Of a stretch of DNA of 64,000 bases, positions 8,034-37,237 are shown piece by piece. Source of the DNA: Flagellatimonas centrodinii (GTDB lineage Bacteria > Pseudomonadota > Gammaproteobacteria > Nevskiales > Nevskiaceae); NCBI RefSeq assembly GCF_016918765.2, contig NZ_CP092104.1:2976001-3040000 (forward strand), read 5' to 3'. Under the pieces are notes generated by a model. It saw nothing but the letters and a program-made list of their open reading frames with translations. It did not search any database and was not told the origin of the DNA. Positions within the stretch are counted from its first letter, which is position 1. Every line of letters begins with the position of its first letter. A program made the position numbers and the translations under genes.

Positions 8034-8296
8034 TCCTTGCGCACCCCGCTGAGCAAAATCTCAGCAAGGTACCGATTAACGTGGGTCAGATTTCAGTCGG
8101 TACTACCCATCAAAGTGGGTCAGATTTCAGACCGCGCCAACACTTATTTCGCTTCGTCGCGCGCATGCCTCTTCATCAGTGGGGTAACTGGCGGCGCAGG
8201 TGAAGATTGTAGTTGCCTCGCCTGGCAACGTGCAGCAGCAAAACGGTGGCAAGAAAGCAGTTTCAACACGGTACTTTTCCTCCCGGGTATGTCTAA

Positions 8297-9528
8297 GGAA
8301 ACACTGATCAAGTGTCTGAATTTTGCGCCGCTCCGCACTTGGGCGCCAAGAGTCGGCTGACTTTGCGGTTTTCAGCACGTTTGGCATGAGAATCGCTCAG
8401 TTCTTCCCGATATTCGGGCTCTTTCGCATATTTGCCCACTGATTCTGCTTGCTGCAGACGCAATTCATCTGCTGGGCTCGGGGATTCGTCGGGCGGCAAT
8501 CAGCAGATTGGCCAGCCCGAACAGGCTGTAAAGCTGGGCGGTGTTCTTGAACAAGCCCCGATAGCGAGCCTTCCGATGCCTGAACAGGTTCTTGATGATG
8601 TGAAATGGGTGCTCGACCTTGGCACGCAGGCTGGATTTCAGTTGTTCGGTTTGCTGAAGCAGCCGTCCGCCTTCGGTGTCAGGGAGTTTGCGTCGCTTGC
8701 CCGGTCGCATCGCGATCTGCCAGGCGACGGTGTGTTCGGGGTTGCACTCTTCCCGCTTCTCCACACCCTGATAGCCCGCATCACCATGGGCGTGTCGCTC
8801 TTCGCCATGCAGCAGGGCATGGGCTTGGGTGATGTCAGCCACGTTACCCGCCGTGCCAATGAGGCTGTGCACCAGTCCCGAGGCGGCATCTACGCCGATA
8901 TGGGCCTTCATGCCGAAGTGCCACTGGTTGCCCTTCTTCGATTGATGCATCTCAGGATCTCGCTCGCCTGCTTTGTTCTTTGTCGAAGGCGAAGCAGCAA
9001 TCAGGGTGGCATCGACAATGGTGCCTTCCCGCATCAGCAGTCCCTGTTCGGCCAGGTGTCCCTTGATGGTCTCGAAGATCAGCTTCGTCAGCCCGTGGGT
9101 TTCCAATAGCCGCCGGAACTTCAGCACCGTGGTGGCATCCGGGGACGACTCCCGTCCCAGATCAATGCCGACAAACCGGCGAATTGCGCCAGAGTCGTAA
9201 ATCGCATCCTCGATCCCCTCGTCGGAGAAACCAAGACATTGCTGGGCAACGTACATCCGCAGCATGCGTTCACAGCCTAGGGGAGGTCGACCATTGCCCG
9301 CCTTCGGGTAGAAGGGATCGATGACCGCAAGCAGTGCAGGCCAGGGCGTTGCGGCATCAATCTTCGATAAAAACCGATCCTGCCGCGTCTGACGTGGCTT
9401 GGCGGCATATTCGGCATCAGCAAAGCTGCGCTGCTTCATCACCCTCATCCCCGTGGAATTCGTCAGCAATATTTTCTCATGTCCAGTCAATCGCAAAAAG
9501 CGTTTGAGGGGACTTGATCAGTGTTTCC
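8297..9528 (-). mobile_element. IS5-family insertion sequence, copy 1
   Basis: 1232-bp element with perfect 17-bp terminal inverted repeats, GGAAACACTGATCAAGT at the left and its reverse complement at the right. It encodes one transposase on the minus strand. The 3' non-coding part (8297-8464) differs from copy 2 at six positions, while no differences were seen in the coding region. Confidence 0.92.
8465..9439 (-). CDS. IS5-family transposase (copy 1)
   Basis: 324-residue DDE transposase (343 if an upstream start at 9496 is used). The start MKQRSFADAEYAAKPRQTR at 9439 matches the usual IS5 beginning. The DDE residues lie in GTIVDATLIAAS, HGDAGYQGVEKR and KVEHPFHIIKN, the last being the YREK-like helix region. 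The protein is identical to copy 2 at 10837-11811. Confidence 0.94.
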   Translation of the reverse strand: MKQRSFADAEYAAKPRQTRQDRFLSKIDAATPWPALLAVIDPFYPKAGNGRPPLGCERMLRMYVAQQCLGFSDEGIEDAIYDSGAIRRFVGIDLGRESSPDATTVLKFRRLLETHGLTKLIFETIKGHLAEQGLLMREGTIVDATLIAASPSTKNKAGERDPEMHQSKKGNQWHFGMKAHIGVDAASGLVHSLIGTAGNVADITQAHALLHGEERHAHGDAGYQGVEKREECNPEHTVAWQIAMRPGKRRKLPDTEGGRLLQQTEQLKSSLRAKVEHPFHIIKNLFRHRKARYRGLFKNTAQLYSLFGLANLLIAARRIPEPSR

Positions 9529-9602
9529 TAAACAGCTTAAATTGTGTAAATAGTAAGGCGTCACCGTAATTCCTGATCATAGACATCCCCCGCGAGACGC
9601 CG

Positions 9603-10538
9603 ATGCCCCTGCACAACGCCACACTCATTGCCATTGCCCTGGCCGCGCTGCTGACCGGTTGCGCCGAGTCCCCGCCGCCGCCGGCACCCGTGCAAGCCGA
9701 AACCGAAGCCGCCTTTGCGCCTGCCGCCCACCCTGACGTGCACCGGTTCGCCATTGGTCAGTACGCCGCGATCGTGCTGCGCGACGGTGACATCCGCGTG
9801 CCCAACGACGGGTCGGTCGTCGCACAGGGTGTGCCGAAGGCTGAAACCGATGCCTTGCTCGCCGCTGCCGGACAGCCCACCGACACCCTGCACCTCGCGG
9901 TGCAGTCGTTGCTGGTGGACCTTGGCGATCGCGTGGTCTTGTTCGATACCGGTGCGGGCGATGCCGCGTTCGCCGACGCGGGACGCTTGCCGCAATCGCT
10001 GTTGGCCGCGGGCGTGGATGCGGCAGGCGTGACCGACATCGTCATCAGCCATGCCCATGGCGATCACGTCGGCGGCCTACTCGACGGCAACGGCCAGCTC
10101 GCGTTCGCCAATGCGACGGTGCGGCTGTCCGCACCGGAATGGCAGGCCTTGCAGGACGATGCCGGGATGGCAGCGCTGGCCGAAGCGATCGCGCCACGCG
10201 TGGAGGTCTTCGAGCCCGGTGCCAATGTCCTGCCCGGCGTCGCTAGCCTGCCGGTCGAAGGCCACACACCGGGCCACAGCGCCTACGTCATCGCCGACGG
10301 CGACCAGCGCCTGCTTTACATCGGCGACACTGCCCACCACCACGTCATCTCGGTGCAGCGTCCGCGCTGGACGATCCAATTCGACGGCGACGCACCCGTG
10401 GCCGAGGACAGCCGCGAAGCGCTGCTGGCCCGCATCGCCGACGAAGGCTGGACGATGCAGTCGCCACATTTCCCGTTCCCGGGGCTGGGACGCATCGAAC
10501 GCCGCGACGACAGTTTCGCGTGGGTGCCGCTGGACTAG
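9603..10538 (+). CDS. Metallo-beta-lactamase-fold lipoprotein hydrolase
   Basis: 311-residue protein with a lipoprotein signal peptide ending in the lipobox LLTGC (about residues 17-21), so probably anchored on the periplasmic side of a membrane. The zinc-binding motif HAHGDHVGG is intact. The third metal histidine is in EGHTPGHSAYV and the bridging Asp in LYIGDTAHHH. This layout is shared by lactonase-like and other MBL hydrolases; the substrate cannot be read from the sequence. It lies alone between two IS5 copies, as the cargo of a probable composite transposon. Confidence 0.85.
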   Translation: MPLHNATLIAIALAALLTGCAESPPPPAPVQAETEAAFAPAAHPDVHRFAIGQYAAIVLRDGDIRVPNDGSVVAQGVPKAETDALLAAAGQPTDTLHLAVQSLLVDLGDRVVLFDTGAGDAAFADAGRLPQSLLAAGVDAAGVTDIVISHAHGDHVGGLLDGNGQLAFANATVRLSAPEWQALQDDAGMAALAEAIAPRVEVFEPGANVLPGVASLPVEGHTPGHSAYVIADGDQRLLYIGDTAHHHVISVQRPRWTIQFDGDAPVAEDSREALLARIADEGWTMQSPHFPFPGLGRIERRDDSFAWVPLD

Positions 10539-10668
10539 AGATCAAACAGGCCGTCGATGCTCCGGCGGCATGGCTTCCTGGCGTTTGCGTTGGGCCAAGT
10601 CGTCGACGGTATCCGGGCGGTACTTCTAAATAAGTCGCGTCTTTAAAGCGCCAGCATCGCACTCTTAG

Positions 10669-11900
10669 GGAAACACTGATCAAGTGTCTGAATTTTGCGC
10701 CGCTGCGCACTTGGGAGCCAAGAGTCGGCTGACTTTGCGGTTTTCAGCAGGCTTGGCATGAGAATCGCTCGGTTCTTCCCGATATTCGGGCTCTTTCGCA
10801 TATTTGCCCACTGATTCTGCTTACTGCAGACGCAATTCATCTGCTGGGCTCGGGGATTCGTCGGGCGGCAATCAGCAGATTGGCCAGCCCGAACAGGCTG
10901 TAAAGCTGGGCGGTGTTCTTGAACAAGCCCCGATAGCGAGCCTTCCGATGCCTGAACAGGTTCTTGATGATGTGAAATGGGTGCTCGACCTTGGCACGCA
11001 GGCTGGATTTCAGTTGTTCGGTTTGCTGAAGCAGCCGTCCGCCTTCGGTGTCAGGGAGTTTGCGTCGCTTGCCCGGTCGCATCGCGATCTGCCAGGCGAC
11101 GGTGTGTTCGGGGTTGCACTCTTCCCGCTTCTCCACACCCTGATAGCCCGCATCACCATGGGCGTGTCGCTCTTCGCCATGCAGCAGGGCATGGGCTTGG
11201 GTGATGTCAGCCACGTTACCCGCCGTGCCAATGAGGCTGTGCACCAGTCCCGAGGCGGCATCTACGCCGATATGGGCCTTCATGCCGAAGTGCCACTGGT
11301 TGCCCTTCTTCGATTGATGCATCTCAGGATCTCGCTCGCCTGCTTTGTTCTTTGTCGAAGGCGAAGCAGCAATCAGGGTGGCATCGACAATGGTGCCTTC
11401 CCGCATCAGCAGTCCCTGTTCGGCCAGGTGTCCCTTGATGGTCTCGAAGATCAGCTTCGTCAGCCCGTGGGTTTCCAATAGCCGCCGGAACTTCAGCACC
11501 GTGGTGGCATCCGGGGACGACTCCCGTCCCAGATCAATGCCGACAAACCGGCGAATTGCGCCAGAGTCGTAAATCGCATCCTCGATCCCCTCGTCGGAGA
11601 AACCAAGACATTGCTGGGCAACGTACATCCGCAGCATGCGTTCACAGCCTAGGGGAGGTCGACCATTGCCCGCCTTCGGGTAGAAGGGATCGATGACCGC
11701 AAGCAGTGCAGGCCAGGGCGTTGCGGCATCAATCTTCGATAAAAACCGATCCTGCCGCGTCTGACGTGGCTTGGCGGCATATTCGGCATCAGCAAAGCTG
11801 CGCTGCTTCATCACCCTCATCCCCGTGGAATTCGTCAGCAATATTTTCTCATGTCCAGTCAATCGCAAAAAGCGTTTGAGGGGACTTGATCAGTGTTTCC
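10669..11900 (-). mobile_element. IS5-family insertion sequence, copy 2
   Basis: 1232-bp copy with the same 17-bp terminal inverted repeats as copy 1 and the same orientation. Left flank TTAG, right flank CTAA. The six differences from copy 1 are confined to its first 170 bases. Confidence 0.92.
10837..11811 (-). CDS. IS5-family transposase (copy 2)
   Basis: Protein identical to the copy at 8465-9439, including the IVDATLIAA, GDAGYQG and VEHPFHIIK catalytic segments. The same start (MKQRSFADAEYA) is used; the upstream ATG at 11868 is an alternative. Because the coding regions appear identical, the two copies are recent duplicates or have been homogenised. Confidence 0.94.
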   Translation of the reverse strand: MKQRSFADAEYAAKPRQTRQDRFLSKIDAATPWPALLAVIDPFYPKAGNGRPPLGCERMLRMYVAQQCLGFSDEGIEDAIYDSGAIRRFVGIDLGRESSPDATTVLKFRRLLETHGLTKLIFETIKGHLAEQGLLMREGTIVDATLIAASPSTKNKAGERDPEMHQSKKGNQWHFGMKAHIGVDAASGLVHSLIGTAGNVADITQAHALLHGEERHAHGDAGYQGVEKREECNPEHTVAWQIAMRPGKRRKLPDTEGGRLLQQTEQLKSSLRAKVEHPFHIIKNLFRHRKARYRGLFKNTAQLYSLFGLANLLIAARRIPEPSR

Positions 11901-12981
11901 CTAAAAGATTACGAAAAGACCCGGCCTGAGGCTATTTCGAGGTGCTGTACAGATAACGAGTCTGTGCCGGGCATTGCAGCCCGGCTTACATGCGCCGCTG
12001 GACGTGGGTTCCCAGCGGCGATGGCGAAAATTAGTTCATCTTAATGGCGATATTGACGCTTTGTGCGAGCTCCGTTGGCGTATTCAGGCCCGTGTAGCCA
12101 CTGGTTCTTGCCCAAGCCTGACACACGGTTTTGGGGTGATTGAATACCCTACATGCGGTCACGATGTGGCGGAATTGCCCACCACCGAAAGCACTTACTA
12201 TCGTCTCGACGAACATACATGCTAGGCCGGTACGCCTCTGTCGCAAATTAAAAAAAGCGAACGCGTCAGAAATCAAAAAAGCCGATTATCTGATCGGCTT
12301 TTGGCGTGCTGCTGAGGCCGAACCGAACCTCAATCGAGACACCCCCGTCGCAAGGTTTTTCAATCCTATTCCTCGAATTTGAATCCGGTCAACCGGGCTT
12401 GCACCCAGGCAGCTAGGAGCGAGTTGGAGCCCATTGTGGGTGCTCCATCTGCACATAGAGGCAGGGGGCAGACCCACACATTTGGTAGCGGGGCGGCATC
12501 CTCTCTGCTCCAATTCGGAGAAAAGAACTCGACCTTCATGCGGTCCTATTTACGTCGCAAACTGTGGCCGCGACGATCCAAAAGCTCTACTTCGATCGCC
12601 AAAAAATCAATCGTGATTCCCGATCATCCTGCTGCCAAAGCTGGACAGTTTCTTGCGGATTCTTCGGTAAGCTTGGCCCCTCGCGAGATCATCATGTTCT
12701 GGCACTGCCGAGCCGACACCGACTGCGGAATCCGCACCATTTCAAAAGGCTGAGTCAAACGAAATGGGGGGGTTACCCCGGACTAGGAATAGAATCAGTC
12801 TAAATGAGAAAAAAAGTGGGGGAGGGGCTCCCGCAGCCGCGATCTCCTGAGACTACACGTTGACGAGGTTCCAGTCGGACGTTTCGCCGGTTCGAACGCG
12901 CATCGCCCGCGAGCCCTTCGAACATTCAAATCTCAAACAGAATGCTCGAAGGACTGCGCCGCGTTCTGTGCTGACGGGGCG
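11901..12981. other. Gene-poor interval between the composite transposon and the HD operon
   Basis: About 1.1 kb with no convincing coding sequence; short frames here lack family features. It contains the second copy of the hairpin repeat (12270-12355) and A/T-rich patches. It is probably decayed mobile DNA. Confidence 0.5.
12270..12355. repeat. Diverged repeat with terminator-like hairpin, copy B
   Basis: Stem AAAAGCCGAT / ATCGGCTTTT (12277-12302) followed by about 50 bases ending GTCGCAAGGT. It aligns over about 85 bases with 5183-5270, with many substitutions but a conserved hairpin and 3' end. Confidence 0.5.
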
Positions 12982-13293
12982 TCAAAATATCAACATTCCT
13001 GCGCTTAAGAAATTTCTCACCTCTTCCTCCGCCGCATCCGATACAAGCTCGTCAGAATTTATCCGCAGTGTTACGGCGACACCATCATCAAGGGTGATGC
13101 TTGCAATGAGGCCAGGAGCCAAGAGCTGCAGATAAATTTTTTCCTCTGCGCCAAGCAGCATCATTTCGGCAGCCGAAAGCATGTCAGCGAGCGCCTCGAA
13201 TTTTTGCCGACCGCATTTAATATCGCTGCGAATTACGACAACTTCGTGCGGGAATTTTTTGCAGGCCCTGCAGTGGTTCTCCAACTCCGTCAT
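12982..13293 (-). CDS. Small hypothetical protein of the HD operon, 103 residues
   Basis: Soluble acidic protein beginning MTELENHCRACKKFPHEVVV, with a CRAC pair near the N-terminus and a central helix FEALADMLSAAEMMLLG. The second half (IASITLDDGVAVTLRINSDELV) looks like beta strands. No family was recognised. Its ATG overlaps the stop of the preceding gene (ATGA at 13290-13293), implying translational coupling and a shared function with the two OB/HD-type proteins upstream in the same operon. Confidence 0.6.
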   Translation of the reverse strand: MTELENHCRACKKFPHEVVVIRSDIKCGRQKFEALADMLSAAEMMLLGAEEKIYLQLLAPGLIASITLDDGVAVTLRINSDELVSDAAEEEVRNFLSAGMLIF

Positions 13294-14000
13294 AGCCGTG
13301 CCACCAACGCCTGATACAGCCCTGCATTCAACGCTTTCAGATTCACAAGCGCGCCTGTCAGCAGATCACCGGCAGTGTTGTTTCCGGTAACGATTGGAAC
13401 CGGTTTGAGAAGCGCAGCCGTGGCGGCGATTTCTCCCTGTAGCGTTGGCTGTTTTAGCTCGGCAGATTTCGCTTTCAACATCTCTGCATCCACCACCGCG
13501 CGCATGGCTAGTCCCCCCGGCATTCCGTGGCGTGATCTCGACTTCATTGCAGGCATCGCAAAGTAGCCTGGATGGATCTGCGGATGGCCGATCACACCGC
13601 CGATGAGATCTGCAAGGTCAGTTGAGCTAATCGCGCTGATGAAGCGATGCATCCTGAGGGCGGTGATGCGACCCCTCTCCATCAGTTCGCCAGTAGGGAT
13701 GCAGTACACCGCCAGCCTCGGCGGAACGGGGCGCACAGCGATCAGCGTGCAGTCACCGCCGTGATGATTGAGGTGCTGGCTGAAATCCAGCTTTGCTTTG
13801 AAAATGTCGCCGATCCGCAGCGTTCCGGCGGCGTCATTTGCATCGTGGACACACACCGTGAGACCCGTCCGGAAGTTGTCGAAACCCGTCAGGGTGATGG
13901 CGCTAGCACCGCAGCGATGGACAACTTCCGTGATGCGGTAGTGGTCGACGACTATGGTGGCTGGGTTGGGCTGATGCAGCGCGTGAGTGGGTTTGTTCAT
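13290..14000 (-). CDS. Degenerate HD-domain paralogue (pseudo-enzyme)
   Basis: 236-residue protein with the same plan as its upstream neighbour: a beta-rich N-terminal part (about 35-105), a linker, then a segment SRHGMPGGLAMRA (156-168) that aligns with SHHAEPGGLAQHS of the neighbour. The three visible HD-metal ligands are gone: the PGGLA-H histidine is R167 and the HD dyad is K199-P200 in ALLKPVPI. It therefore looks like a catalytically dead paralogue, perhaps a regulatory or structural partner. The start was set at ATG 14000 (MNKPTHALHQPN); the frame is open upstream to 14138 but without a better start. It ends by ATGA overlap with the next gene. Confidence 0.6.
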   Translation of the reverse strand: MNKPTHALHQPNPATIVVDHYRITEVVHRCGASAITLTGFDNFRTGLTVCVHDANDAAGTLRIGDIFKAKLDFSQHLNHHGGDCTLIAVRPVPPRLAVYCIPTGELMERGRITALRMHRFISAISSTDLADLIGGVIGHPQIHPGYFAMPAMKSRSRHGMPGGLAMRAVVDAEMLKAKSAELKQPTLQGEIAATAALLKPVPIVTGNNTAGDLLTGALVNLKALNAGLYQALVARL

Positions 14001-14147
14001 GATTGATTTCTCTGCTGGATTACGGGTACGTGTCAGCCTGTTGACTGACCGCTGAGTGGATCGCGGTGATTGAGGTTGATCGCGCCCTACACCGCCAAGT
14101 CCGATAACGTCCAGCCCCGCCTCCCAGAGGGCTGCCAAACGTTTGGA

Positions 14148-15176
14148 TCAATCCATGGCGCCCTCCTCTCCGGTCGCATCACTCGCGTCTGCGGCGGCAG
14201 CAGTGCTGCTCACATAAGGCGGTGTTCGATGTCGCTCTACGGCCCGGATATGTTTCTTCGTCCGACCGTTGCCCGTGTCGCGGATGACATGGCGGTAGTA
14301 CGACGGGGCGTCCGCAAATGCGATGGCAGCCGATGAACGAGTTGCGCTGATGCGATCAGCCAATGTGATGGCGGCGGCTGCGACGCAGCTGGCGTGTTCG
14401 GCCCGGCTGTCGATTGAGAGCAGGTGCATCAGCATCTCGGCGACGCTGATGTCCTCGTGCTCTTCGAGCCACGCAATCATCGGCCCCACGAGACCGATCG
14501 TGCGGGTTTCATGGGAGGTATCGTGCATCCGGTACGGCTCGTCAGCCGAGCGATAGAGCTGGATTTTGCCGAGGTCATGGATGACTGCAGCGACGATTGC
14601 GATGTCCCGGTTGATTGGCTCGCCGTAGTAGCGGACGGGTATGGCGCAGACCAGTTGAGCGACTTCCAGGCTGTGTTGTGCCAGCCCACCGGGCTCCGCG
14701 TGATGAGAGACGACAGAGGCGGGTTTCGAGGAAAATGCAGAAAAGATCTTGGGCTGACTTAGCAGCCCGTGAACCGCCTGCGCCACGGCTGGATTGCGAA
14801 TCTCCGTGTCGATGAGCTCAGCGATTTTTCTCACCGCCTCAGCACCGACAACCGGCAGTCCGGCCACAGGGCAGTGGTGCAAGGTGCATTGCTCCGGCGG
14901 GAGCAGGTCAGTGATTTCCAGGTACAGCGCTTCGTGCTTGTCGAACACTTCGGGCCAGCCTGTGCAGCAAACCACCGTGCCAACTTGAAGCTGATCGCGG
15001 AGAGCGGGGGGCACGTCGGCCACCGCCCGATGTTCGCCATAGAGCGTGCCGACGCGGAGGTTGACCAGATCACTATTTGGGCGCGCATCGACGGCCAAAA
15101 TCCGGAATTGACCGTCGACGAAGGCTAGATCTTCGCGGATGGATTGTTCGACTGCGATAACACTATGTTTCTGCAT
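14148..15176 (-). CDS. HD-domain phosphohydrolase, OB-HD (YhaM/TraI_2-like)
   Basis: 342-residue protein. The N-terminal about 100 residues resemble an OB-fold (LVNLRVGTLYGEHRAV, LQVGTVVCCTG). The HD domain has H168 in PGGLAQHSLEV, the dyad H200-D201 in AAVIHDLGK, H251, and D274 in LADRIS. This layout is found in YhaM-type 3'-5' exonucleases and in the TraI_2/HD proteins of integrative elements; which of these applies cannot be decided here. The C-terminus is a disordered Ala/Asp-rich tail. It is the first gene of a three-gene minus-strand operon and is divergent from a Cro/C1 regulator. Confidence 0.75.
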   Translation of the reverse strand: MQKHSVIAVEQSIREDLAFVDGQFRILAVDARPNSDLVNLRVGTLYGEHRAVADVPPALRDQLQVGTVVCCTGWPEVFDKHEALYLEITDLLPPEQCTLHHCPVAGLPVVGAEAVRKIAELIDTEIRNPAVAQAVHGLLSQPKIFSAFSSKPASVVSHHAEPGGLAQHSLEVAQLVCAIPVRYYGEPINRDIAIVAAVIHDLGKIQLYRSADEPYRMHDTSHETRTIGLVGPMIAWLEEHEDISVAEMLMHLLSIDSRAEHASCVAAAAITLADRISATRSSAAIAFADAPSYYRHVIRDTGNGRTKKHIRAVERHRTPPYVSSTAAAADASDATGEEGAMD

Positions 15177-15235
15177 GATTTATCAAAAGTCCTTGTGACG
15201 AAAACGAGTCACTTGAGTTGGCAGTGAATGAAATA

Positions 15236-15264
15236 TAACGCATCGTTATGATGTGTTACGCATC
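15236..15264. promoter_or_regulatory. Putative operator between the HD operon and the Cro/C1 regulator
   Basis: Inverted repeat TAACGCATC-GTTAT-GATGTGTTA (15236-15258, one mismatch) with a third half-site TTACGCATC at 15256-15264. It lies in the divergent intergenic region and is a good candidate site for the adjacent helix-turn-helix protein. No promoter consensus is unambiguous here. Confidence 0.5.
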
Positions 15265-15340
15265 ACAATAAGGCGAAATGGATCGGCCCGCAAGGGGGTT
15301 CAGCTATCCTTTAAAAAATTCACCAATGGATGGCGTCGGA

Positions 15341-15571
15341 ATGATCAAAAGCGCGCTGGCGATTAGGCTTGCTGAGAAGAAGATCAAGATCACCGACCTT
15401 GCCCGTGAGACGGGCATTGATCGGACAATGCTCACCAAGCTGTACTACGACCGAACCAGACGCCTCGATTTGGAGACTTTGAACAGGCTCTGCGTGTATT
15501 TCGGCTGCAACGTCGAGGGCATCATCAGGTTCGAGACCGATGAAAAAGGGAAGGGCGACGATAACGCTTAG
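15341..15571 (+). CDS. Cro/C1-type helix-turn-helix regulator
   Basis: 76-residue protein MIKSALAIRLAEKKIKITDLARETGIDR... with the five-helix Cro/C1 fold; the recognition helix lies near TMLTKLYYDRTRRLDLETL, and the end NRLCVYFGCNVEGIIRFE is typical of small phage-like repressors. The start ATG 15341 was preferred over upstream ATGs at 15278 and 15326, because it begins exactly at the domain. It is divergent from the HD operon, with a partly palindromic operator between them, and lies upstream of the BREX genes, so it could regulate either side. Confidence 0.8.
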   Translation: MIKSALAIRLAEKKIKITDLARETGIDRTMLTKLYYDRTRRLDLETLNRLCVYFGCNVEGIIRFETDEKGKGDDNA

Positions 15572-15580: not shown

Positions 15581-15605
15581 TGCTGTCTCACCAAATGAGA
15601 CAGCA
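15581..15605. promoter_or_regulatory. Perfect 10-bp inverted repeat TGCTGTCTCA-N5-TGAGACAGCA
   Basis: The stem is perfect, with a 5-base spacer, located between the regulator stop and brxA. It could be a terminator hairpin without a U-tract, or an operator. The motif TGCTGTCTCA-N5-TGAGAC recurs at 36640-36660 upstream of umuC. Confidence 0.5.
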
Positions 15606-15706
15606 ACCTACTAGGCTGATCCCTCAACAACCGATTTCAGAATGCTCGCCAAGAAACCTACGCCTTGTTTTGCCAAGTGCCTTCGACATATCGGGCTATT
15701 CCGACT

Positions 15707-16291
15707 GTGGCCTTGAAGGCAAACTTCACCAAGTGCTCCCTCATCGTCCCCGAGACCCGCTGTGTGGCGGATCTCTTGTTGGCGGGTATCTCGACGGATG
15801 AGTGGCGGCAGCGTATTGAGATCGACAACGTGCTCCAGAAGAAGACCCGAAACAGTGCGATCACCTACGCCAGCTTGGCTCGTTCGAGGTTAATGACGAT
15901 GAATGCGCCGCTGTGGCAACTCGTCCGAGACGGCACATCTCCAGAGGCCACTGACGGCGCACTTGCGGCCACCATCAAGTTCTCGCCCCTCTTCGGGCAA
16001 TTTTTGAGCACGGTTGTTCGGGACTGCCACCGCCGCTATCTCACTGAGCTCCCGGCCAGTGCGTGGGATGACTACCTAGATGACATGCAGCGCACCCATT
16101 CCGAGATGCCCAGCTTCAACGAATCCACCCGCGTGAAGCTGAGGCAAAACGCGATGCGCATACTCCAAGAAGCGGGATTCATCGAGAGCACGCGGCATCT
16201 CGTTCTTCGCAAGCGGCAAACCGAGCCGCGCGTCCTTGCATACCTCAATGAACATCAAGAGGACTTCGTGATGGAGTGCATCCAGGCATGA
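15707..16291 (+). CDS. brxA: BREX protein BrxA (DUF1819)
   Basis: About 194 residues. The start ANFTKCSLIVPETRCVADLLL matches the DUF1819/BrxA family, small proteins essential for many type 1 BREX systems. The start is uncertain: a GTG at 15707 begins right at the domain, while a TTG at 15665 would add 14 residues; neither has a clear ribosome binding site. The stop overlaps the ATG of brxB (ATGA at 16288-16291). It is the first gene of an unbroken BREX operon. Confidence 0.85.
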   Translation: MALKANFTKCSLIVPETRCVADLLLAGISTDEWRQRIEIDNVLQKKTRNSAITYASLARSRLMTMNAPLWQLVRDGTSPEATDGALAATIKFSPLFGQFLSTVVRDCHRRYLTELPASAWDDYLDDMQRTHSEMPSFNESTRVKLRQNAMRILQEAGFIESTRHLVLRKRQTEPRVLAYLNEHQEDFVMECIQA

Positions 16292-16866
16292 GCCTCGCCA
16301 AGCTGGAAGATCGGCTCAATGCCGTCCTTGAACGCATCACCGCTGATGACTTTCTCTCCGGGCGCGGTCTGGGCAATGAGGTGCCTTTTTACGCCTTCGA
16401 CTATCCCCCGGAGTTCGAGCCCAAGGTTCGCGACCACATTCAGTTTCTGCTCGAAACTGCGCCCAAGCGTCGTCCCGGCGTGCGCATCAAGGTCATCAAC
16501 CTGTTCGAAGTCCTTATCCGCATGCTGGAAGCGCGTGGCCTTTACGAGAAGTCGGTGGCCATGCAAAAGAGCAAGGGCGATCAAGCCCTGCTTAAAGCCA
16601 TTCGGGCGCCGTTGGAAGCCGACAAGGTCGCCGCTGAGGTCATGGCGGACCTGCAAGCCGATCCCTGCGATGTATTGCTGATGACTGGCGTCGGCAGCGC
16701 GTATCCGCTGGTGCGCACCCACACCCTGCTCAACAGCCTGCAACCCAGGCTGGGCAGCCTGCCTTTGGTGCTGTTCTATCCCGGACGTTACGACGGCCAG
16801 TCCCTTCAGCTCTTTGGGCTGCTGGGCGAGAAGCCCTACTACCGTGCCTTCAGACTCGTGAGCTGA
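16288..16866 (+). CDS. brxB: BREX protein BrxB (DUF1788)
   Basis: 192-residue protein starting MSLAKLEDRLNAVLERI. The family body is visible in VRIKVINLFEVLIRMLEARGLYEKS and VLLMTGVGSAYPLVRTHTLL, ending LPLVLFYPGRYDGQSLQLFG. BrxB is a required type 1 BREX component, probably a scaffold for complex assembly. The ATG at 16288 overlaps the brxA stop, which fixes the start; brxC begins 13 bases after the stop. Confidence 0.9.
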   Translation: MSLAKLEDRLNAVLERITADDFLSGRGLGNEVPFYAFDYPPEFEPKVRDHIQFLLETAPKRRPGVRIKVINLFEVLIRMLEARGLYEKSVAMQKSKGDQALLKAIRAPLEADKVAAEVMADLQADPCDVLLMTGVGSAYPLVRTHTLLNSLQPRLGSLPLVLFYPGRYDGQSLQLFGLLGEKPYYRAFRLVS

Positions 16867-16879
16867 GACCCAACTCAAA

Positions 16880-19800
16880 ATGAAAATTCAGGAACTCTTC
16901 GAGCGGCCCATCCGCCGCAACATCAATGGTGTCATCAAGGCGGACCAGAACGATGCCGCATCGGTCTGGCAGGAGCTTGACGAGTACGTTGTCACCAAGG
17001 AGCTGGACCAGCACTTTCGCCGCTTCTTCGACAGCTATCTTGCCGCCCTGCAACGGCCCGAAGAAGCGGCAGGCAAAGTGGGCGTCTGGATCTCCGGCTT
17101 CTTCGGCTCTGGTAAGTCCCACTTCCTGAAGATCCTGTCTTACCTATTGGAGAACCGCGAGGTCACCCATGATGGGCAGACCCGCAAGGCAGCCGAGTTC
17201 TTCCGCAGCAAGATCACCGATGCCATGCTGGTGGCGGACATCGAGCGCGCCGTCTCCAGTGACACCGACGTGCTGCTGTTCAACATCGACAGCAAAGCCG
17301 ATGCAGCAGATGGTCGAGACACCGTGCTGCGCGTCTTCCTCAAGGTGTTTAACGAGAAGCTTGGCTACTGCGGCGACCACGCACACATTGCGCACATGGA
17401 GCGCATGCTCAGTGCCAAGGGGGTCTACGACCGCTTCCGTGCCACCTTCGAGGCCGATGCAGGCGAGTCGTGGGAGGCCGCCCGTGACGCCTACAGCTTC
17501 CATCTCGATGCCTTTGGTAAGGCCCTGTCGGAAGCACTCGGCCAGGCGATCCCGGATGCCGAAGCCTGGATGCAGCGCTTTGAGACCGACTTCTCCCTGA
17601 CCGTTGAGAACTTCGCGGAATGGATCAAGGACTACCTCGACAAGCAGGGCAAGTCGCGCCGACTGGTGTTCCTCGTCGACGAAATCGGCCAGTTCGTGGG
17701 CAAAGACACCCAGCTCATGCTCAGCCTGCAAACCATCACCGAAAACCTCGGCACCGTTTGCGGTGGCCGTGCCTGGGTGGTGGTCACCTCACAGGAAGAC
17801 ATCGATGCCGTCATCGGTGAAGTCCGCGCCTCCCGCGCCAACGACTTCTCGAAGATTCAGGGCCGCTTCAAAACCCGGTTGTCACTTTCCAGCGCCAATG
17901 TCGATGAGGTCATTCAGGCCCGCCTGTTGGCCAAGCCCAAACCCATCCATGACCAGCTGACCCAGCTCTACTCGGGTAAAGCAGACATCCTCAGCAATCA
18001 GCTGAGCTTCGTGGGCACCGGGCGAACCTTCCGTGCCTACGGCGACCAAAATCACTTTGCCGAGGTGTATCCCTTCGCGCCTTACCAGTTCCAACTGGTG
18101 CAGCGCATCTTCGAGAGCATTCGCAAAGCGGGCGCCACAGGGCTGCATCTCGCACGTGGCGAGCGTTCGCTCCTGGATGCCTTCCAGTCAGCGGCGACGG
18201 CGGTTGCCGAGGAAGAGGTCGGCATTCTTGTTCCTCTCCATCGCTTCTACTCCAGCATCGAGAGCTTTCTCGAAGGCGTCGTCAAATCCACCATCGATAA
18301 CGCCAGCCGCAACGTCAGCCTCAAGCCCTTTGACGTCCTGCTGCTCAAAACCCTGTTTCTCATCCGTTACGTGGACGAACTCAAGGGCAACGTCGACAAC
18401 CTCATCACCCTGTTCATCGACCGCATTGATGCCGACCGCCTAGCGCTCCGCAACGAGATAGAAGCCAGCCTCCAGCGTTTGGAAAAGGAAACACTCGTCG
18501 CCCGCAACGGCGATGACTTCTTCTTCCTCACCAACGAAGAGCGGGATGTCAGCCGCGAGATCAAGGAAGTTGATCTCAGCAGCGCTGACGAGGCCAAAGA
18601 GCTGGGCAAGCTGGTCTTTGAAGAGGTGCTCAAGGGCATCCGCAAATTCCGCTACCCGACCAATCGCAAGGACTTCGGCCTCAACCTCACCTGCGATGGT
18701 TTTCCTCACGGGCGGCCTGAAGAAGGCAACTTGCCGTTGCAGGTCATCAGCCCGTTGAACGACGAGCACCGCAGCTTTGACGAGCCACGCTGCATCATGG
18801 CCAGCGGCAATGCACCCGGCAGCGTCATCGTGCGCATGAGTGATGACGAAGCGCTGGCCCGAGAGCTGCGCCTCTATCTCCAGACTGACCGCTATGTCAG
18901 CCGCAAGGCCGACAACTCGCTGCCATCCGCCACCCAGAAAATCCTCCGCGAGCGAACCGAAGAAAACCGCCAGCGCAGAGGCCGTCTGTCGGTGATTGTC
19001 GAGCGCCTGATCAAAGACGCCGACTATTACGCCGCAGGCCAAAAGCCGACCCTCAAGGGCAGCGCGCCGCAGGCATTGGTCGATGAAGCACTGGGTTACT
19101 TCGTCGCCAACACCTTCTCCAAGCTCGGCTACATCGAGCACCTCAATCCCGATCCGCAGAAGGAGGCCCACACCCTCATCGCCACCCACGGCACGGCGGG
19201 GCTGGACCTCGAAACCACTTCGCAGACCAATCCGCGCGCGCTTAAAGAACTGAGCCAGCTCATCGCGCTACAAACCCAGGCTTCGCGGCGCATCGTTCTG
19301 CACGACCTCACCGATGGACACTTTGCCCGGCGTCCTTACGGCTGGCCGGAATGGGAGACCCTCTTGTTGGTCGTGCGCTTGGTCCTTCAGGGCGAACTCA
19401 CCCTCATCTACAACAACACAGCGCTCAAAGTGGAGGAACTCTGGCCGGTGCTGAACACGCCTTCGCGGTGGCGCAGCGTAGAAGTCCAGAAGCGGCAGGC
19501 GATGGGCTCGGCCGAGCTACAGAAGGCGCGGCAGCTGATGAAGGATCTTTTCCACCAGATTGGCCCGGATGGGGAGGACGCCCTTTACGCCGAACTGCGC
19601 CGACAGCTCAGCGGCTGGAAGGTCGAGCTGGAAAAGTGGAAGCTCATGAGTCAGAACGGCTACCCCGGTGGCAAGGCTATCGCCGCCGCCATGGAGGTCG
19701 TCAATCGTCAACTGGCTGCTGCCGACAGCTATGCCGCCATCAGTGGCTTTCTCACGCAACAAAGTGACTTGCTGGATTCGGGTGACACCTTCCACGAACT

Positions 19801-20491
19801 CAAGGACTTCTTCGGCAGCCAGAAAGAAGCCTGGGACCGTCTCAAACAAGCCAGCCAGCGCTTCGGCCTCAACCGCAGCAAGTTGGAGAAGGACGCCCAA
19901 GCAGGTCCAGCCCTGCAACGCATCGAGCTCATTCTCAACGCCGACGCTCCCTACGGGCTGCTGCGGGAAGCCGATGGCCTGATCTCCACCTTAGAGAAAG
20001 CCAACAACGATCTGTTGGAGGCCGCACGACTCCGCGCCCTCGCCAACCTAGAAAAGTCCATTGACAAGGTTCAAGCCGAACTTGAGCTGGTGAAGGCCGA
20101 CGCTGACCTGCGCAACCGCAGCCTCAAGCCCCTTCAAGACCGCAAGGCGCAGATTGGCCAACAGCTCAGCCTCGCGCACCTGTTCCAGTTGCAGGACGAG
20201 CTACAGCATCAAGCCGATGAGGCCATCGACCGCATCCATGCTTGGCAGGAAGCCCAACGCAAGGTGGCACCCCAGCCGCCACCTGTGCCCCCAGCAGGCG
20301 GATCAGCAGGAATCCCCTCAGGCGAGCCCATCATCGCGCCTGCGTTCAAGAAACCTCACATCCTGCGGGCGGCCCAGCTCGCCAGTACGGCGTATATCAG
20401 CTCAGACACCGAGGCAGAGGCATTCCTCGAAAAGCTACGCGCGGAGATGATGTCAGCGCTCAAGCGGGGTGAGCGCATTGAGATCCGATAG
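16880..20491 (+). CDS. brxC: BREX ATPase BrxC
   Basis: 1203-residue large P-loop ATPase of type 1 BREX (also called PglY-like, DUF499). Walker A is GFFGSGKS at 73-80. A Walker B-like region follows at LVFLVDEIGQFVG. The C-terminal half carries long coiled-coil helices (LEKANNDLLEAARLRALANLEKSIDKV) and ends in a Pro-rich linker and a short folded tail. It is full length for the family. ATP hydrolysis by BrxC is needed for host methylation and phage exclusion. Confidence 0.93.
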   Translation: MKIQELFERPIRRNINGVIKADQNDAASVWQELDEYVVTKELDQHFRRFFDSYLAALQRPEEAAGKVGVWISGFFGSGKSHFLKILSYLLENREVTHDGQTRKAAEFFRSKITDAMLVADIERAVSSDTDVLLFNIDSKADAADGRDTVLRVFLKVFNEKLGYCGDHAHIAHMERMLSAKGVYDRFRATFEADAGESWEAARDAYSFHLDAFGKALSEALGQAIPDAEAWMQRFETDFSLTVENFAEWIKDYLDKQGKSRRLVFLVDEIGQFVGKDTQLMLSLQTITENLGTVCGGRAWVVVTSQEDIDAVIGEVRASRANDFSKIQGRFKTRLSLSSANVDEVIQARLLAKPKPIHDQLTQLYSGKADILSNQLSFVGTGRTFRAYGDQNHFAEVYPFAPYQFQLVQRIFESIRKAGATGLHLARGERSLLDAFQSAATAVAEEEVGILVPLHRFYSSIESFLEGVVKSTIDNASRNVSLKPFDVLLLKTLFLIRYVDELKGNVDNLITLFIDRIDADRLALRNEIEASLQRLEKETLVARNGDDFFFLTNEERDVSREIKEVDLSSADEAKELGKLVFEEVLKGIRKFRYPTNRKDFGLNLTCDGFPHGRPEEGNLPLQVISPLNDEHRSFDEPRCIMASGNAPGSVIVRMSDDEALARELRLYLQTDRYVSRKADNSLPSATQKILRERTEENRQRRGRLSVIVERLIKDADYYAAGQKPTLKGSAPQALVDEALGYFVANTFSKLGYIEHLNPDPQKEAHTLIATHGTAGLDLETTSQTNPRALKELSQLIALQTQASRRIVLHDLTDGHFARRPYGWPEWETLLLVVRLVLQGELTLIYNNTALKVEELWPVLNTPSRWRSVEVQKRQAMGSAELQKARQLMKDLFHQIGPDGEDALYAELRRQLSGWKVELEKWKLMSQNGYPGGKAIAAAMEVVNRQLAAADSYAAISGFLTQQSDLLDSGDTFHELKDFFGSQKEAWDRLKQASQRFGLNRSKLEKDAQAGPALQRIELILNADAPYGLLREADGLISTLEKANNDLLEAARLRALANLEKSIDKVQAELELVKADADLRNRSLKPLQDRKAQIGQQLSLAHLFQLQDELQHQADEAIDRIHAWQEAQRKVAPQPPPVPPAGGSAGIPSGEPIIAPAFKKPHILRAAQLASTAYISSDTEAEAFLEKLRAEMMSALKRGERIEIR

Positions 20492-20520
20492 CCAAACCGA
20501 CAGGACCAAGAGGGACGTGA

Positions 20521-22254
20521 ATGTATAAGCCAGGCGGAACAATTCACGATCTGCTCAACGGCATCGTCGACCACAAATACATTCTTCCAGCTATCCAACG
20601 GGAATTTGTCTGGGGACCTGAGCAAATCTGCAAGCTCTTCGACAGCCTGATGCAGGGGTATCCGTTCGGAACCTTCTTGTTTTGGAAAATCGAACCCGAG
20701 CAACAAGCGCAGTATCAATTTTACGATTTCGTCCAGCACTTTCATCAGCGCGACCGATACCATTGCGAGCTGATCGAGGCCCTTCCGCAGAAAGCACTGA
20801 CGGCCGTGCTCGATGGTCAGCAACGCATGACCGCGCTCAATATTGGTTTGCGTGGCTCCTACGCATGGCGAATCGCCGGAAAGTGGCGAACCAATGACGC
20901 AGCCTTCCCGATCAGACATCTTCACCTCGACCTCTTGGGCAAGCCTGACCCGGAAAGCGGATCGCAGTATCGGTTTGAATTCCTCACCGGTGACCAGCTG
21001 GCGAAAGCGACGCCTGACCAATGCTGGTTCAAGGTATCGAGAGTCGTCAGCGAATCACATGATGAGCTGGTGGACGAACTCGACCACATCGCCGACGGCG
21101 AGCGGCGGAAGACCGCTCGTGGAGTGCTTCGGCATCTGCTGAAAACCATTCACGACCGAGAGGTGGTGTCCTACTACGAGGAAACCAATCAGGACCTTGA
21201 GCGCGTCCTGAACATCTTCATCCGGATGAACAGCGGCGGCACGGCGCTCTCATACTCGGATCTGTTGCTTTCCATTGCCGTTGCGCAATGGAGCAAACTC
21301 GATGCCCGCCAGGAGATTCATGATCTGGTGGACGAGATGAATGCGGAGGGCGATGGCTTTGCCTACAGCAAGGACCTCGTGCTGAAAGCGGGGCTGATGC
21401 TTGCCGATATCGGCAGCGTTGGCTTCAAGGTCGAGAACTTCAACAAGGCCAACATGGCCAAGCTTGAGGATCAGTGGCAGGTCATCCGAACCTCATTGAT
21501 GCTCGCAGTCCGTTTGCTTGCCAGCTTCGGATTCAACGGCCAGAACCTGCGAGCGGACAGCGCCATCTTGCCCATCGCGTACTACCTACACATGAGAGCG
21601 CTGGGTGAAGGCTATTTGTCGCGCTCGGAGTTCGCAGTTGATCGAGAGGCCGTTCGCAAATGGCTGGTCCGCAGTCTGCTGAAGGCGTCAGGCATCTGGG
21701 GGAGTGGTCTGGATACGCTGCTGACCGACCTGCGTGAGGTGCTCAAGACCAAAGCGTCGAGTGGCTTTCCTGTCGCCGATTTGGAAGGTGCGATGTCGAA
21801 GCGTGGCAAGTCACTGACCTTTTCGGAAGATGAGATCGACGAGCTCTGTGATTTGCCCTACGGGCACAAATCCACCTTCGCTCTCCTATCCGTGCTCTTC
21901 CCTGGGTTCGACTTCTCCCAGCATTTTCATGTTGACCACATCTTCCCCAAAGGTCGGTTCACTAAGGCAAAGCTGATCAAGGCTGGATTTGATTCCAATC
22001 TGGTTGATGAGCTCACCGAGCAGTGCAATCAATTGCCGAACCTGCAACTACTCGTCGGCTCCATTAACAACGAAAAGCGCCAGAAGATGCCTCTAGAGTG
22101 GTACGCCGTGCAGTGGCCCGATGAGATGGCTCGAAGGCAGTACCTCGACAACCAAGCCATACCGAACCTCCCTGCCGACCTGCTCGGGTTCCCCGAGTTC
22201 TACAAGCAACGTAGGGCCACTCTTAAGGCCCGTATCACGGCGGCTCTTCAATAA
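20521..22254 (+). CDS. brxU: GmrSD/BrxU-like DUF262-HNH endonuclease, BREX accessory
   Basis: 577-residue protein with an N-terminal DUF262/ParB-like nucleotidase motif (AIQREFVWGPEQI, then VLDGQQRMTAL) and a C-terminal DUF1524 HNH-type nuclease (HFHVDHIFPKGRF, then NLQLLVGSINNEKRQ). This fusion is the GmrSD/BrxU family, type IV enzymes that cleave modified (e.g. hydroxymethyl- or glucosyl-cytosine) phage DNA. It lies in the operon between brxC and pglX, 29 bases after brxC and 3 bases before pglX. It would complement BREX by attacking modified phages. The symbol is by family resemblance. Confidence 0.82.
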   Translation: MYKPGGTIHDLLNGIVDHKYILPAIQREFVWGPEQICKLFDSLMQGYPFGTFLFWKIEPEQQAQYQFYDFVQHFHQRDRYHCELIEALPQKALTAVLDGQQRMTALNIGLRGSYAWRIAGKWRTNDAAFPIRHLHLDLLGKPDPESGSQYRFEFLTGDQLAKATPDQCWFKVSRVVSESHDELVDELDHIADGERRKTARGVLRHLLKTIHDREVVSYYEETNQDLERVLNIFIRMNSGGTALSYSDLLLSIAVAQWSKLDARQEIHDLVDEMNAEGDGFAYSKDLVLKAGLMLADIGSVGFKVENFNKANMAKLEDQWQVIRTSLMLAVRLLASFGFNGQNLRADSAILPIAYYLHMRALGEGYLSRSEFAVDREAVRKWLVRSLLKASGIWGSGLDTLLTDLREVLKTKASSGFPVADLEGAMSKRGKSLTFSEDEIDELCDLPYGHKSTFALLSVLFPGFDFSQHFHVDHIFPKGRFTKAKLIKAGFDSNLVDELTEQCNQLPNLQLLVGSINNEKRQKMPLEWYAVQWPDEMARRQYLDNQAIPNLPADLLGFPEFYKQRRATLKARITAALQ

Positions 22255-22257
22255 CTC

Positions 22258-25200
22258 ATGAACAAATCCGCCCTCAAGAAATACGCGCCCCAAGCCCGTA
22301 GGGACTTCATCGCCGCCGTCACTCAGCGCGCCCAGCGTCTGGGGCTGGACCCGGCGCGGCCTGCCACGGTGCAGCAAACCGGGGACGTGCTGCTGATTGA
22401 CGGCCAAGCGTATTCCTCCAATTGGTCCGGGCTGCGTAGCCAACTTCAGGCCCGCATCAAAGACCAAGGCTTTGCCCAGGTGATGGACGCCATGGCCTAC
22501 ACCTGGTTCAACCGCCTGGTGGCCATCCGCTACATGGAGCTGCACGGCTTCCTGGACCATGGCTACCGCGTGCTCAGCCACCCGGCCAACAAAGACACTG
22601 GCCACACCCAGCCCGAGATCCTCGATCACATCAATGAGCTGGATCTGCCCGGCCTCGACCGCAGCCGCGCGCTGGATCTCAAGCTCGCAGGCAACCGCGA
22701 CGAAGAGCTGTACCGCGAGGTGCTGCTGGCTCAGTGCCACGCCTTGCACAAGGCCATGCCCTTCCTGTTCGAATCGCTGGACGACGCCACCGAGCTGCTG
22801 CTGCCCGACGGCCTGCTGCGCACCGATTCCATCCTGGGCAAGCTCGTCACTGCCATCGACGAGGCCGACTGGCAGGACGTCGAAATCATCGGCTGGCTCT
22901 ACCAGTTCTACATCAGCGAGAAGAAGGATCAGGTCATCGGCAAGGTGGTGAAAAGCGAGGACATCCCCGCCGCCACTCAGCTCTTCACCCCCAACTGGAT
23001 CGTCAAATACTTGGTGCAGAATAGCCTCGGCCGCCTGTGGCTGATGGCCAACTCCACAAGCCAACTGGCGACCAAGTGGGAGTACTACATCCAGCCCGCC
23101 GAGCAGACGCCCGAAGTCAACGCCCAGCTCGACACGCTCATTCAGGCCCGGATCAAAGAGGACGGCGCCACCCTCAACCCCGAGTCCCTCACGCTGCTCG
23201 ACCCGGCCTGCGGATCCGGCCACATCCTGGTGGAAGCCTACGACCTGCTGCGCGACATATACCTGGAGCGTGGCTACCGCCGGCAGGACATCCCCCGCCT
23301 GATTCTGGAAATGAACCTCTTCGGCCTGGACATCGACGACCGTGCCGCCCAGCTCGCCGGTTTTGCCCTGTTGATGAAGGCGCGGGCGGATGATCGGCGG
23401 TTGTTTGGGCAGCCTGTGGTGTTGAATGTGTTGGCTTTGCAGGAGGCGAAGGAAGGCAGCGCGGCGGAACTGCACAGCGCGCTGAATGCGCCGCAGATTG
23501 ACTATGCGACGGTGAGCCAGCTTTTTGAGACGTTTGAGCAGGCCAAGACCTTTGGATCGTTGATTCAGATTTCCGATGAACTGGCGAGTGCCTTGCCGGA
23601 TTTGCAGCGTGAGCTGGAGGCCGTACGCGGCGGTGGCGACATGCTAGGGCAGGATGCGGCGGAAACATTGCTGCGGCTGGTGGAGCAGGCGGAAGTGCTA
23701 GCCAAGCAGTTTGATGCTGTAGTGGCGAATCCGCCGTATATGGGCGGCAAAGGCATGAATGCTGACTTGAAGGCTTGGGCAAAGAAAACCTTCCCGGCCA
23801 GCAAGGCCGATCTGTTCGCCATGTTCATAGAACGCGGTTTTGGCTGGTGCAAGCCGGCCGGCTTCAACGGCATGGTGACGATGCAGAGTTGGATGTTCCT
23901 ATCCAGCTTTGAGGACATGCGGACGAAGCTGCTCGAAAATCGCAGCATCAGCACGATGGCGCACCTGGGCGCACGGGCCTTCAGCGAGATCTCCGGCGAA
24001 GTCGTACAGACCACTGCTTTTGTGCTTCAACAAAGGCATATAACTGGTTTCTGCCCGGTGTTTTTCCGGCTAGTTGACGGGAGTGAACCGGCTAAAGCCG
24101 AAGCCCTGCGCACAAATCAGAATCGTTTTGATACAACGTTTCAAGATGAATTCATTAAGGTGCCCGGCAGTCCTATCGCCTATTGGCTAACACAGGACGG
24201 AATCTCGACCTTTGTCGATCAACCAAAATTGGCTGACGTAGGAAAAACACGTCGAGGCTTACAGACCGGCCAGAAAGACAAATTCATTCGTTATTGGCAT
24301 GAATGTGATTCGCGACAGATCGAGTTCAGGTACTTGAGCAGAAATGAAGCCATCGAGTCTCCAGCAAAGTGGTTCATGTTCAACAATGGAGGTGATTTTC
24401 GAAAATGGTTTGGGAATTTGGATCTTGTCGTAAACTGGAAGAATAATGGAAGTGAGCTTAAGGAGTTCCCTGGATCCATCATCCCAAGTGAGGAATTGTA
24501 TTTTGAGCAGGCCGTGGCTTGGCCGAGAATTACAACCACGACCCTTGGTTTTCGACTGCATCCGGAAGGCGTGTTGCCGGGAGATTTGTCTCCGTGCTAC
24601 TACACCGATGACCACCTTGTAGCTTTGGGGTATTTGAACAGCAGCAGCGCCGGCTACTTTTTGAATGCAATTAACCCTACGATAACTTCACCTGTGGGGG
24701 ATATCGCCAAGATCCCCATACCCAGATTGAGCGATTCCGAGCGCACATCAATTGTTGATGCTGTTAGTCAACTGATCGAAATTCACAAAGCCGATTGGAA
24801 TAATCGGGAACAATCTTGGGATTTTTGTTCGATTGAGGGGGTCAAGCCAGGCGGCCGAGGGGCACTCTGTGGTTGGGCGGCAAAACTAAAAGATCAAGAA
24901 AACCGTGCTCGCGAGAAGACATTGGCGTTGGAATCCGAGCTGCAACGGACGATGGCAAGGCTTTGCCTTGTTGAATCCGTGGTTTCGACAGCGGCAGATC
25001 CCCTAGAGATTTGCATTGAACAACAAAATGACTCTTCTCGGGCGGCTGCTCTGACTTCATACGCCATCGGCTGCATGATGGGCCGCTATAGCCTCGACGC
25101 CCCCGGCCTGATCTACGCCCACGCTGGCAACGAAGGCTTCGACCCTAGCCGTTACGAAACCTTCCCGGCCGACGACGACGGCATCGTCCCCATCACCGAC

Positions 25201-25788
25201 GAAGCCTGGTTCGACGACGACGGCGCCAACCGCATCCGCGAATTCGTCCGCGTCGTCTGGGGCGAAGACACCGAAGCCGAAAACATGGCTTGGCTTGCCG
25301 AATCTCTCGGCAGCAAAGCCAGTGAGTCCGTCGACGACACCATCCGCCGCTACCTCAGCCGCGACTTCTACAAAGACCACCTGCAGACCTACAAAAAGCG
25401 GCCCATCTACTGGCTGTTCAGCTCCGGCAAACATAAAGCCTTCGAAGCCCTCGTGTACCTGCACCGCTACAACGCCGGCACACTCTCCCGCATGCGCATG
25501 GAATACGTCGTCCCCCTCCAGTCCCGCATGCAAGCCCGCATCGACAAGCTGGAAGACGACATCACCAGCACCACCAGCAGCGCCCAACAAAAAGCCCTGC
25601 GCAAGCAAAAAGACAAACTCGCCAAACAGCTCGAAGAACTCCGCAGCTTCGACGAAAAACTCCGCCACTTCGCCGACCAACGCATCACCCTGGATCTGGA
25701 TGACGGCGTGAAGGTCAACTACGGCAAGTTCGGGGATCTGTTGGCAGAGGTGAAAGCGGTGACGGGAGGTAGTTCAGATGAGTCTTAA
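22258..25788 (+). CDS. pglX: BREX adenine methyltransferase PglX
   Basis: 1176-residue N6-adenine methyltransferase that marks host DNA in BREX. SAM-binding motif I reads LDPACGSGHILVEAYDLLRD (about 314-330) and the catalytic motif IV is NPPY at 491-494 in VVANPPYMGGKG. The C-terminal part carries the target-recognition region and ends with coiled-coil helices (SRMQARIDKLEDDI, LRKQKDKLAKQLEELRS). The region around 24010-25060 is noticeably more A/T-rich than both sides, consistent with exchange of the specificity domain. The stop overlaps the next gene by 11 bases. Confidence 0.93.
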   Translation: MNKSALKKYAPQARRDFIAAVTQRAQRLGLDPARPATVQQTGDVLLIDGQAYSSNWSGLRSQLQARIKDQGFAQVMDAMAYTWFNRLVAIRYMELHGFLDHGYRVLSHPANKDTGHTQPEILDHINELDLPGLDRSRALDLKLAGNRDEELYREVLLAQCHALHKAMPFLFESLDDATELLLPDGLLRTDSILGKLVTAIDEADWQDVEIIGWLYQFYISEKKDQVIGKVVKSEDIPAATQLFTPNWIVKYLVQNSLGRLWLMANSTSQLATKWEYYIQPAEQTPEVNAQLDTLIQARIKEDGATLNPESLTLLDPACGSGHILVEAYDLLRDIYLERGYRRQDIPRLILEMNLFGLDIDDRAAQLAGFALLMKARADDRRLFGQPVVLNVLALQEAKEGSAAELHSALNAPQIDYATVSQLFETFEQAKTFGSLIQISDELASALPDLQRELEAVRGGGDMLGQDAAETLLRLVEQAEVLAKQFDAVVANPPYMGGKGMNADLKAWAKKTFPASKADLFAMFIERGFGWCKPAGFNGMVTMQSWMFLSSFEDMRTKLLENRSISTMAHLGARAFSEISGEVVQTTAFVLQQRHITGFCPVFFRLVDGSEPAKAEALRTNQNRFDTTFQDEFIKVPGSPIAYWLTQDGISTFVDQPKLADVGKTRRGLQTGQKDKFIRYWHECDSRQIEFRYLSRNEAIESPAKWFMFNNGGDFRKWFGNLDLVVNWKNNGSELKEFPGSIIPSEELYFEQAVAWPRITTTTLGFRLHPEGVLPGDLSPCYYTDDHLVALGYLNSSSAGYFLNAINPTITSPVGDIAKIPIPRLSDSERTSIVDAVSQLIEIHKADWNNREQSWDFCSIEGVKPGGRGALCGWAAKLKDQENRAREKTLALESELQRTMARLCLVESVVSTAADPLEICIEQQNDSSRAAALTSYAIGCMMGRYSLDAPGLIYAHAGNEGFDPSRYETFPADDDGIVPITDEAWFDDDGANRIREFVRVVWGEDTEAENMAWLAESLGSKASESVDDTIRRYLSRDFYKDHLQTYKKRPIYWLFSSGKHKAFEALVYLHRYNAGTLSRMRMEYVVPLQSRMQARIDKLEDDITSTTSSAQQKALRKQKDKLAKQLEELRSFDEKLRHFADQRITLDLDDGVKVNYGKFGDLLAEVKAVTGGSSDES

Positions 25789-26287: not shown

Positions 26288-26375
26288 CACTCGCGAGAAG
26301 TGTCTGGTTTTGTACAGCTGTAATGTCGCGGCGATTGTGCACGTTAGCTTCAAGACGTCTTGGTGATCGTTTGGT

Positions 26376-26410: not shown

Positions 26411-26412
26411 CT

Positions 26413-36620: not shown

Positions 36621-36639
36621 GGACAGAAGGCTATTGGTC

Positions 36640-37209: not shown

Positions 37210-37237
37210 GGGGGGAATGCCTGGAGGAAAGCGGAGA

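Follow-up and report, generated by a model that had tools for sequence, protein, structure and literature searches.

The YhaM/CBF1 3'-5' exoribonucleases of Bacillota combine an OB domain with an HD domain and carry the motif series HH...GGL..H...HD.GK...D. YhaM of S. aureus degrades single-stranded RNA and single-stranded DNA with Mn; it functions in dimeric and hexameric form, and in its HD mutants assembly is poor (PMC11347170). The MobH/TraI_2 relaxases of PFGI-1-type ICEs share the HH..PGGL..H...HD core of the HD domain, as a short local match only. The Int-Xis-repressor modules of tRNA-targeting islands, which use Arm-DNA-bind_2 integrases, consist of a divergent HTH gene, a small gene that is excisionase-like by position and size (with no Pfam match), the integrase and sometimes a KfrA-like gene. 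The literature searched yielded no paper that connects YhaM-like proteins with integrases or islands. The locus described here lies at 12982-15571 of a 64,000-nucleotide stretch of the Flagellatimonas centrodinii genome, hereafter the window. It encodes an OB-HD protein with the architecture and motifs of YhaM, and its relatives have the Int-Xis-repressor modules as their usual neighbours. Unlike YhaM of Bacillota, this HD family is encoded in mobile-island modules of Pseudomonadota, and the window member is accompanied by a dead paralogue.

The operon runs on the minus strand. Its lead gene (14148-15176) encodes the 342-residue OB-HD protein, which is single-copy in its own genome. The second gene (13290-14000) encodes a dead relative of 236 residues when counted from its likely ATG start, and the third (12982-13293) encodes a small protein of 103 residues from no known family. 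An ATGA overlap at 13290-13293 joins the small gene to the gene of the dead paralogue, as described in the first-pass annotation of this DNA. A Cro/C1-type regulator of 76 residues (15341-15571, plus strand) is divergent from the operon. All elements of the operon proposed in that annotation are thus present. The open frame of the regulator reaches back to an ATG at 15278, and the start at 15341 was set by relatives that begin with MIRC or MIKS. The open frame of the second gene begins at a TTG at 14138; the ATG at 14000 is the likelier start, because the relative in another species of the same genus (genome G034) begins at the equivalent residue.

The OB-fold part of the lead protein covers residues ~18-95 (14892-15125), with beta strands at residues 20-92 in the AlphaFold model, and the HD domain covers residues ~147-286 (14319-14738). 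Pfam identifies the HD domain with an E-value of 4.3e-7 and gives a weak TraI_2 match. Ten columns, H158, H159, G163, G164, L165, H168, H200, D201, K204 and D274, are invariant in 18 relatives. The H...HD...D set reported earlier for this protein is therefore intact, its ligands H168, H200, D201 and D274 being invariant across the 18 sequences. In the AlphaFold model (pLDDT 83.5), an OB-like barrel at the N terminus is followed by a helical HD domain. YhaM was ranked first by both Foldseek and VIA-align, with a Z-score of 18.6 for the HD part over 197 of 212 residues, while the next HD protein reached only 9.5. OB-fold chains match residues 1-99 of the model at Z-scores of 8-9. The family profile aligns to residues 7-283 of the 321 in the solved YhaM structure (9h3f) with an E-value of 1.9e-25, and to CBF1/YhaM (9o7t) with 2.5e-18. 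All 18 family members match the NCBIfam YhaM model at E<=0.01. That model (NF010007) is also the best NCBIfam match of the window protein, with an E-value of 3.4e-6, and the score is 26.3 bits against a cut-off of 460. The protein has the co-linear OB and HD domains and the intact H...HD...D ligands of the broad YhaM/CBF1 superfamily.

The shared HD core raises the alternative that this is a small protein of relaxase-like (MOBH) type that mobilises an island in trans. Fourteen of 18 members match NCBIfam MobH locally (best E-value 8.7e-10), eight of 18 match TraI_2, and the gene stands beside integrases as in mobilisable elements. However, the MobH model (NF041494) has a cut-off of 200 bits for a 340-residue domain and gives the window protein 21.5 bits across 24 positions, and members within the order Nevskiales score 19-26 bits over ~25-65 positions. 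The same order has genuine MobH proteins, separate from the HD family, in open frames of 580-848 residues with scores above 316 bits; the HD protein has 342 residues and matches YhaM nearly end to end. We consider this alternative very unlikely. Curated cut-offs rule out both the MobH relaxase and the YhaM equivalog labels. Since the profile matches YhaM nearly end to end, structure comparison ranks YhaM first and MobH shares only a short stretch, the protein belongs with the YhaM/CBF1-like OB-HD proteins; by those cut-offs it is not a YhaM equivalog, and not a relaxase either. It is probably an Mn-dependent 3'-5' exonuclease, a prediction in which family and fold are shown and catalysis is taken from YhaM. 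The second HH pair of YhaM (SHHG) is not conserved in the family, so the activity may differ from that of YhaM.

The second protein had been described as a dead paralogue with R, K and P in place of the metal ligands. We find exactly these replacements, H168 to R, H200 to K and D201 to P; H159, one of the two adjacent histidines, is retained. The homology is beyond chance: BLASTP of the pair gives an E-value of 5e-5, the family HMM finds the copies of the window and of G034 with 1e-7 and 1e-9, respectively, and profile-profile alignment with hhalign gives a probability of 96.8 with an E-value of 2.5e-10. The second protein is a true relative of the HD protein, predicted from its lost ligands to be catalytically dead. 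In the dead copy of G034 (L034:10077-10877) the H168, H200 and D201 columns hold R, D and G, so that both copies are predicted to be dead by partly different changes. The PGGLA segment noted in the second protein is real, but the alignment does not demonstrate the same OB-like plan, as the aligned block starts only after the N-terminal ~95 residues. Structure prediction, suggested earlier for both proteins, gave an OB and HD arrangement for the active one and an unusable model for the dead one (pLDDT 39.8, too few sequences), in which the N-terminal part is predicted as strands. No meaningful match for the dead protein was found in the PDB, and no relative among plasmids and viral contigs. The small protein matches nothing in Pfam, NCBIfam, PADLOC, PHROGs or the PDB and shows no similarity to the HD family. 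Its relative in G034 (L034:10971-11246) is 34% identical, and one marginal match (E 8e-4) was found elsewhere in the order, in genome G016.

Among 85 genomes of the order, the dead copy and the small gene occur together only in this genome and in G034. Otherwise the dead copy is absent from these genomes, except for profile matches to the HD genes themselves, and none was found in a sample of 398 genomes across the phylum. The first-pass annotation had named rarity of the three genes together as something that would count against a common module; the trio is indeed rare, at 2 of 85 genomes. In G034 the trio (L034:8983-11246) has the same order behind the HD gene at 28-34% identity, with a one-base overlap between the HD gene and the dead gene. 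The dead and small genes of the two genomes are far diverged, yet the gene order and the segments RITE, PGYFAMP and PGG are kept, suggesting that the dead copies are unlike decaying debris. Lipoprotein-like, KfrA-like, methylase and serine recombinase genes lie near the G034 trio, and no BREX was found near it. A block of UmuDC and endonuclease I genes in the window (35274-38546) is common to G034 (L081:11632-14889), and the G034 trio lies ~12 kb away, on the other side of this block. This part of the genome resembles an insertion hotspot for islands.

Of the 85 genomes of the order, 20 have a relative of the HD protein; across the phylum, at an E-value of 1e-10, 11 of 398 sampled genomes do. 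Gene context was counted in 31 loci of Pseudomonadota with a usable gene call; these are partly dependent (L032 and L033 are near-identical and L072 and L073 are close), and their boundaries come from a simple gene caller. A tyrosine or serine recombinase lies within four genes in 25 of the 31. In 20 loci the HD gene follows a tyrosine integrase gene in the same direction, overlapping it in eight. A homologous divergent regulator is present in 22, the window included, and 11 of the regulator genes lie within ~300 bp of a tRNA gene. A representative integrase is of the Arm-DNA-bind_2 type. Integrase-free loci are those of the window, its sister (L030), L031, L032/L033 and L034, with recombinases further off in L031 and L034. 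In the tree, the window groups with L031-L033, and L034 is placed near them at an unresolved position. Unlike the Int-Xis-repressor modules, the window copy has the dead paralogue and the small gene and no adjacent integrase or excisionase; neither these nor island ends were found beside it. A tblastn search of the window with the proteins of L031-L035 and G034 revealed no remnants of integrase, KfrA, methylase or serine recombinase. Its island matches were confined to the regulator, the HD gene, the dead copy and the small gene, and the remaining matches fell in IS elements, UmuDC and chromosomal genes of the neighbourhood. Plasmids hold no relative of the window HD protein or of the HD protein of locus L042; phages hold none of the former and one weak match for the latter. 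A search of genome contigs gave two distant matches in Clostridia only.

Given the recombinases in 25 of 31 loci, the usual divergent regulator and the tRNA gene near 11 of them, we read the operon as the regulatory and nuclease part of an integrative genomic-island module that is present here without its integrase, with BREX as cargo or neighbour, and give this reading a probability of roughly 0.55. The operon is probably what remains of a genomic-island mobility or maintenance module, or a variant of one, and probably mobile-island machinery rather than part of a defence system.

The earlier assignment of the regulator to the Cro/C1 type agrees with its match to Pfam HTH_26 (PF13443, E 7.9e-18), and its divergent placement recurs in the family, where 22 of 31 loci have a homologue in this arrangement. 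Between the regulator and the HD gene lies a candidate operator, GATG-N7-CATC (15250-15264), which overlaps a promoter-like site found by a promoter scan (15259-15232, minus strand). This motif is present in all five integrase-free loci with a regulator-HD pair, 61-90 bp from the domain start of the regulator. It matches at 8 of 8 positions in the window and in L031, a score that none of 300 shuffles reached for either locus, and at 7 of 8 in L030, L032 and L033, where each match alone has shuffle odds of ~7-11%. In a sliding alignment with the sister species (genome G035, L030:12266-12640), a cassette that holds the DNA-binding part of the regulator and the operator (15160-15470) is only ~55-60% identical, lower with gaps, compared to ~90-100% in the flanks, which reach 92-100% on the BREX side and ~90% within the HD gene; the borders of the divergent part are sharp. 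The two species share the final 21 residues of the regulator without a difference, while the DNA-binding part differs. At the level of sequence, this divergence ties the regulator to the regulator-HD intergenic region. It is like what replacement of a repressor and its operator would leave, as in a swapped phage immunity cassette.

On its right the operon adjoins a type I BREX system (15665-32764) with BrxA, BrxB, BrxC, PglX, PglZ and BrxL. A HEC-05 (GmrSD-like) gene and an AbiE pair lie inside the BREX operon at 20521-22254 and 25778-28093. In G035 the same BREX, with ~90-96% DNA identity in aligned parts, again has the regulator and the HD gene as neighbours. An IS3-type element interrupts and shortens this second HD gene while BREX is kept, so the operon is dispensable in that genome. 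Other parts of the system differ between the two species: the HEC-05 gene was not found in G035, a 38-residue remnant was all that was detected of AbiEii, and a part of PglX (24131-25057) is a gap in the alignment between parts of 90% and 94% identity, as would be expected from the sequence for exchange of a target-recognition part.

Two further readings place the trio with defence. In the first, it is an independent anti-phage module (nuclease effector, pseudoenzyme inhibitor or sensor, partner and repressor) in a defence island beside BREX. The adjoining BREX, AbiE and HEC-05 genes fit this, active and dead paralogues with an autoregulator resemble toxin-antitoxin or defence layouts, and type I restriction-like genes, recognised by eye, lie near some other HD loci. 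However, BREX is found in only 2 of 31 HD loci, those of this genome and G035, which points to a single linkage event that does not define the operon, and the HD family goes with integrases and not with one defence type. PADLOC gives no convincing match for the trio, only weak Cas3-HD matches (0.002-0.016) and a generic HTH model. We regard this reading as doubtful. The first-pass annotation had likened this build, next to BREX, to defence or regulatory modules; a defence role linked with BREX finds no support here, given the same single linkage, the same lack of a convincing PADLOC match and the integrase and excisionase genes that are the typical neighbours. The neighbourhood survey it had called for finds the trio again once, in G034 in the same order and with no BREX nearby. 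Type I BREX is adjacent to the trio, linked in one lineage only, and not part of the operon. In the second reading, the regulator and the HD gene control BREX expression, the regulator being the first gene upstream of brxA. It reads towards brxA, with a 10-bp hairpin without a T run between them (15581-15605, plus strand; RNA fold z -3.4), and both are also retained in G035. But many islands that lack BREX carry this regulator-HD pair as well, and in G035 BREX persists although the HD gene is broken, which makes such control improbable.

For the genomic-island module, a possible mechanism can be outlined. GATG-N7-CATC sites in the stretch that separates regulator and HD gene are probably bound by the Cro/C1 protein, which would thereby repress the two genes, an idea that co-variation supports. 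The OB domain of the HD protein probably binds single-stranded nucleic acid, and the HD protein probably trims 3' ends in an Mn-dependent manner. Its targets may be the transcripts of the island itself, or single-stranded DNA during island excision or replication. The dead paralogue and the active protein probably form mixed oligomers, changing activity or target; the oligomers of YhaM (PMC11347170) and the gene order kept in G034 were counted in favour of this idea. The small protein would be a co-translated partner of the dead paralogue. More tentatively, a YhaM-type exonuclease and its pseudoenzyme twin may act in a repressor-controlled mixed complex that governs excision or replication of the island or keeps out related islands; interchangeable repressor and operator specificities would then create immunity groups like those of temperate phages. 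We put this forward as a speculative possibility.

Elsewhere in the window, two direct copies of an IS5-like element (8294-9539 and 10666-11911), 99.2% identical, flank a gene of the metallo-beta-lactamase fold (9603-10538) in a composite-transposon layout. A perfect 40-bp palindrome is found at 41197-41236.

A branch of the YhaM/CBF1 nucleases goes with genomic-island integrases across Pseudomonadota, a link that is absent from the literature searched. If the nuclease role is true, it would open a new way to study how islands that carry defence genes control their excision and maintenance. The regulation is open to direct tests through the rare dead twin and through the divergence of repressor and operator between the sister species.
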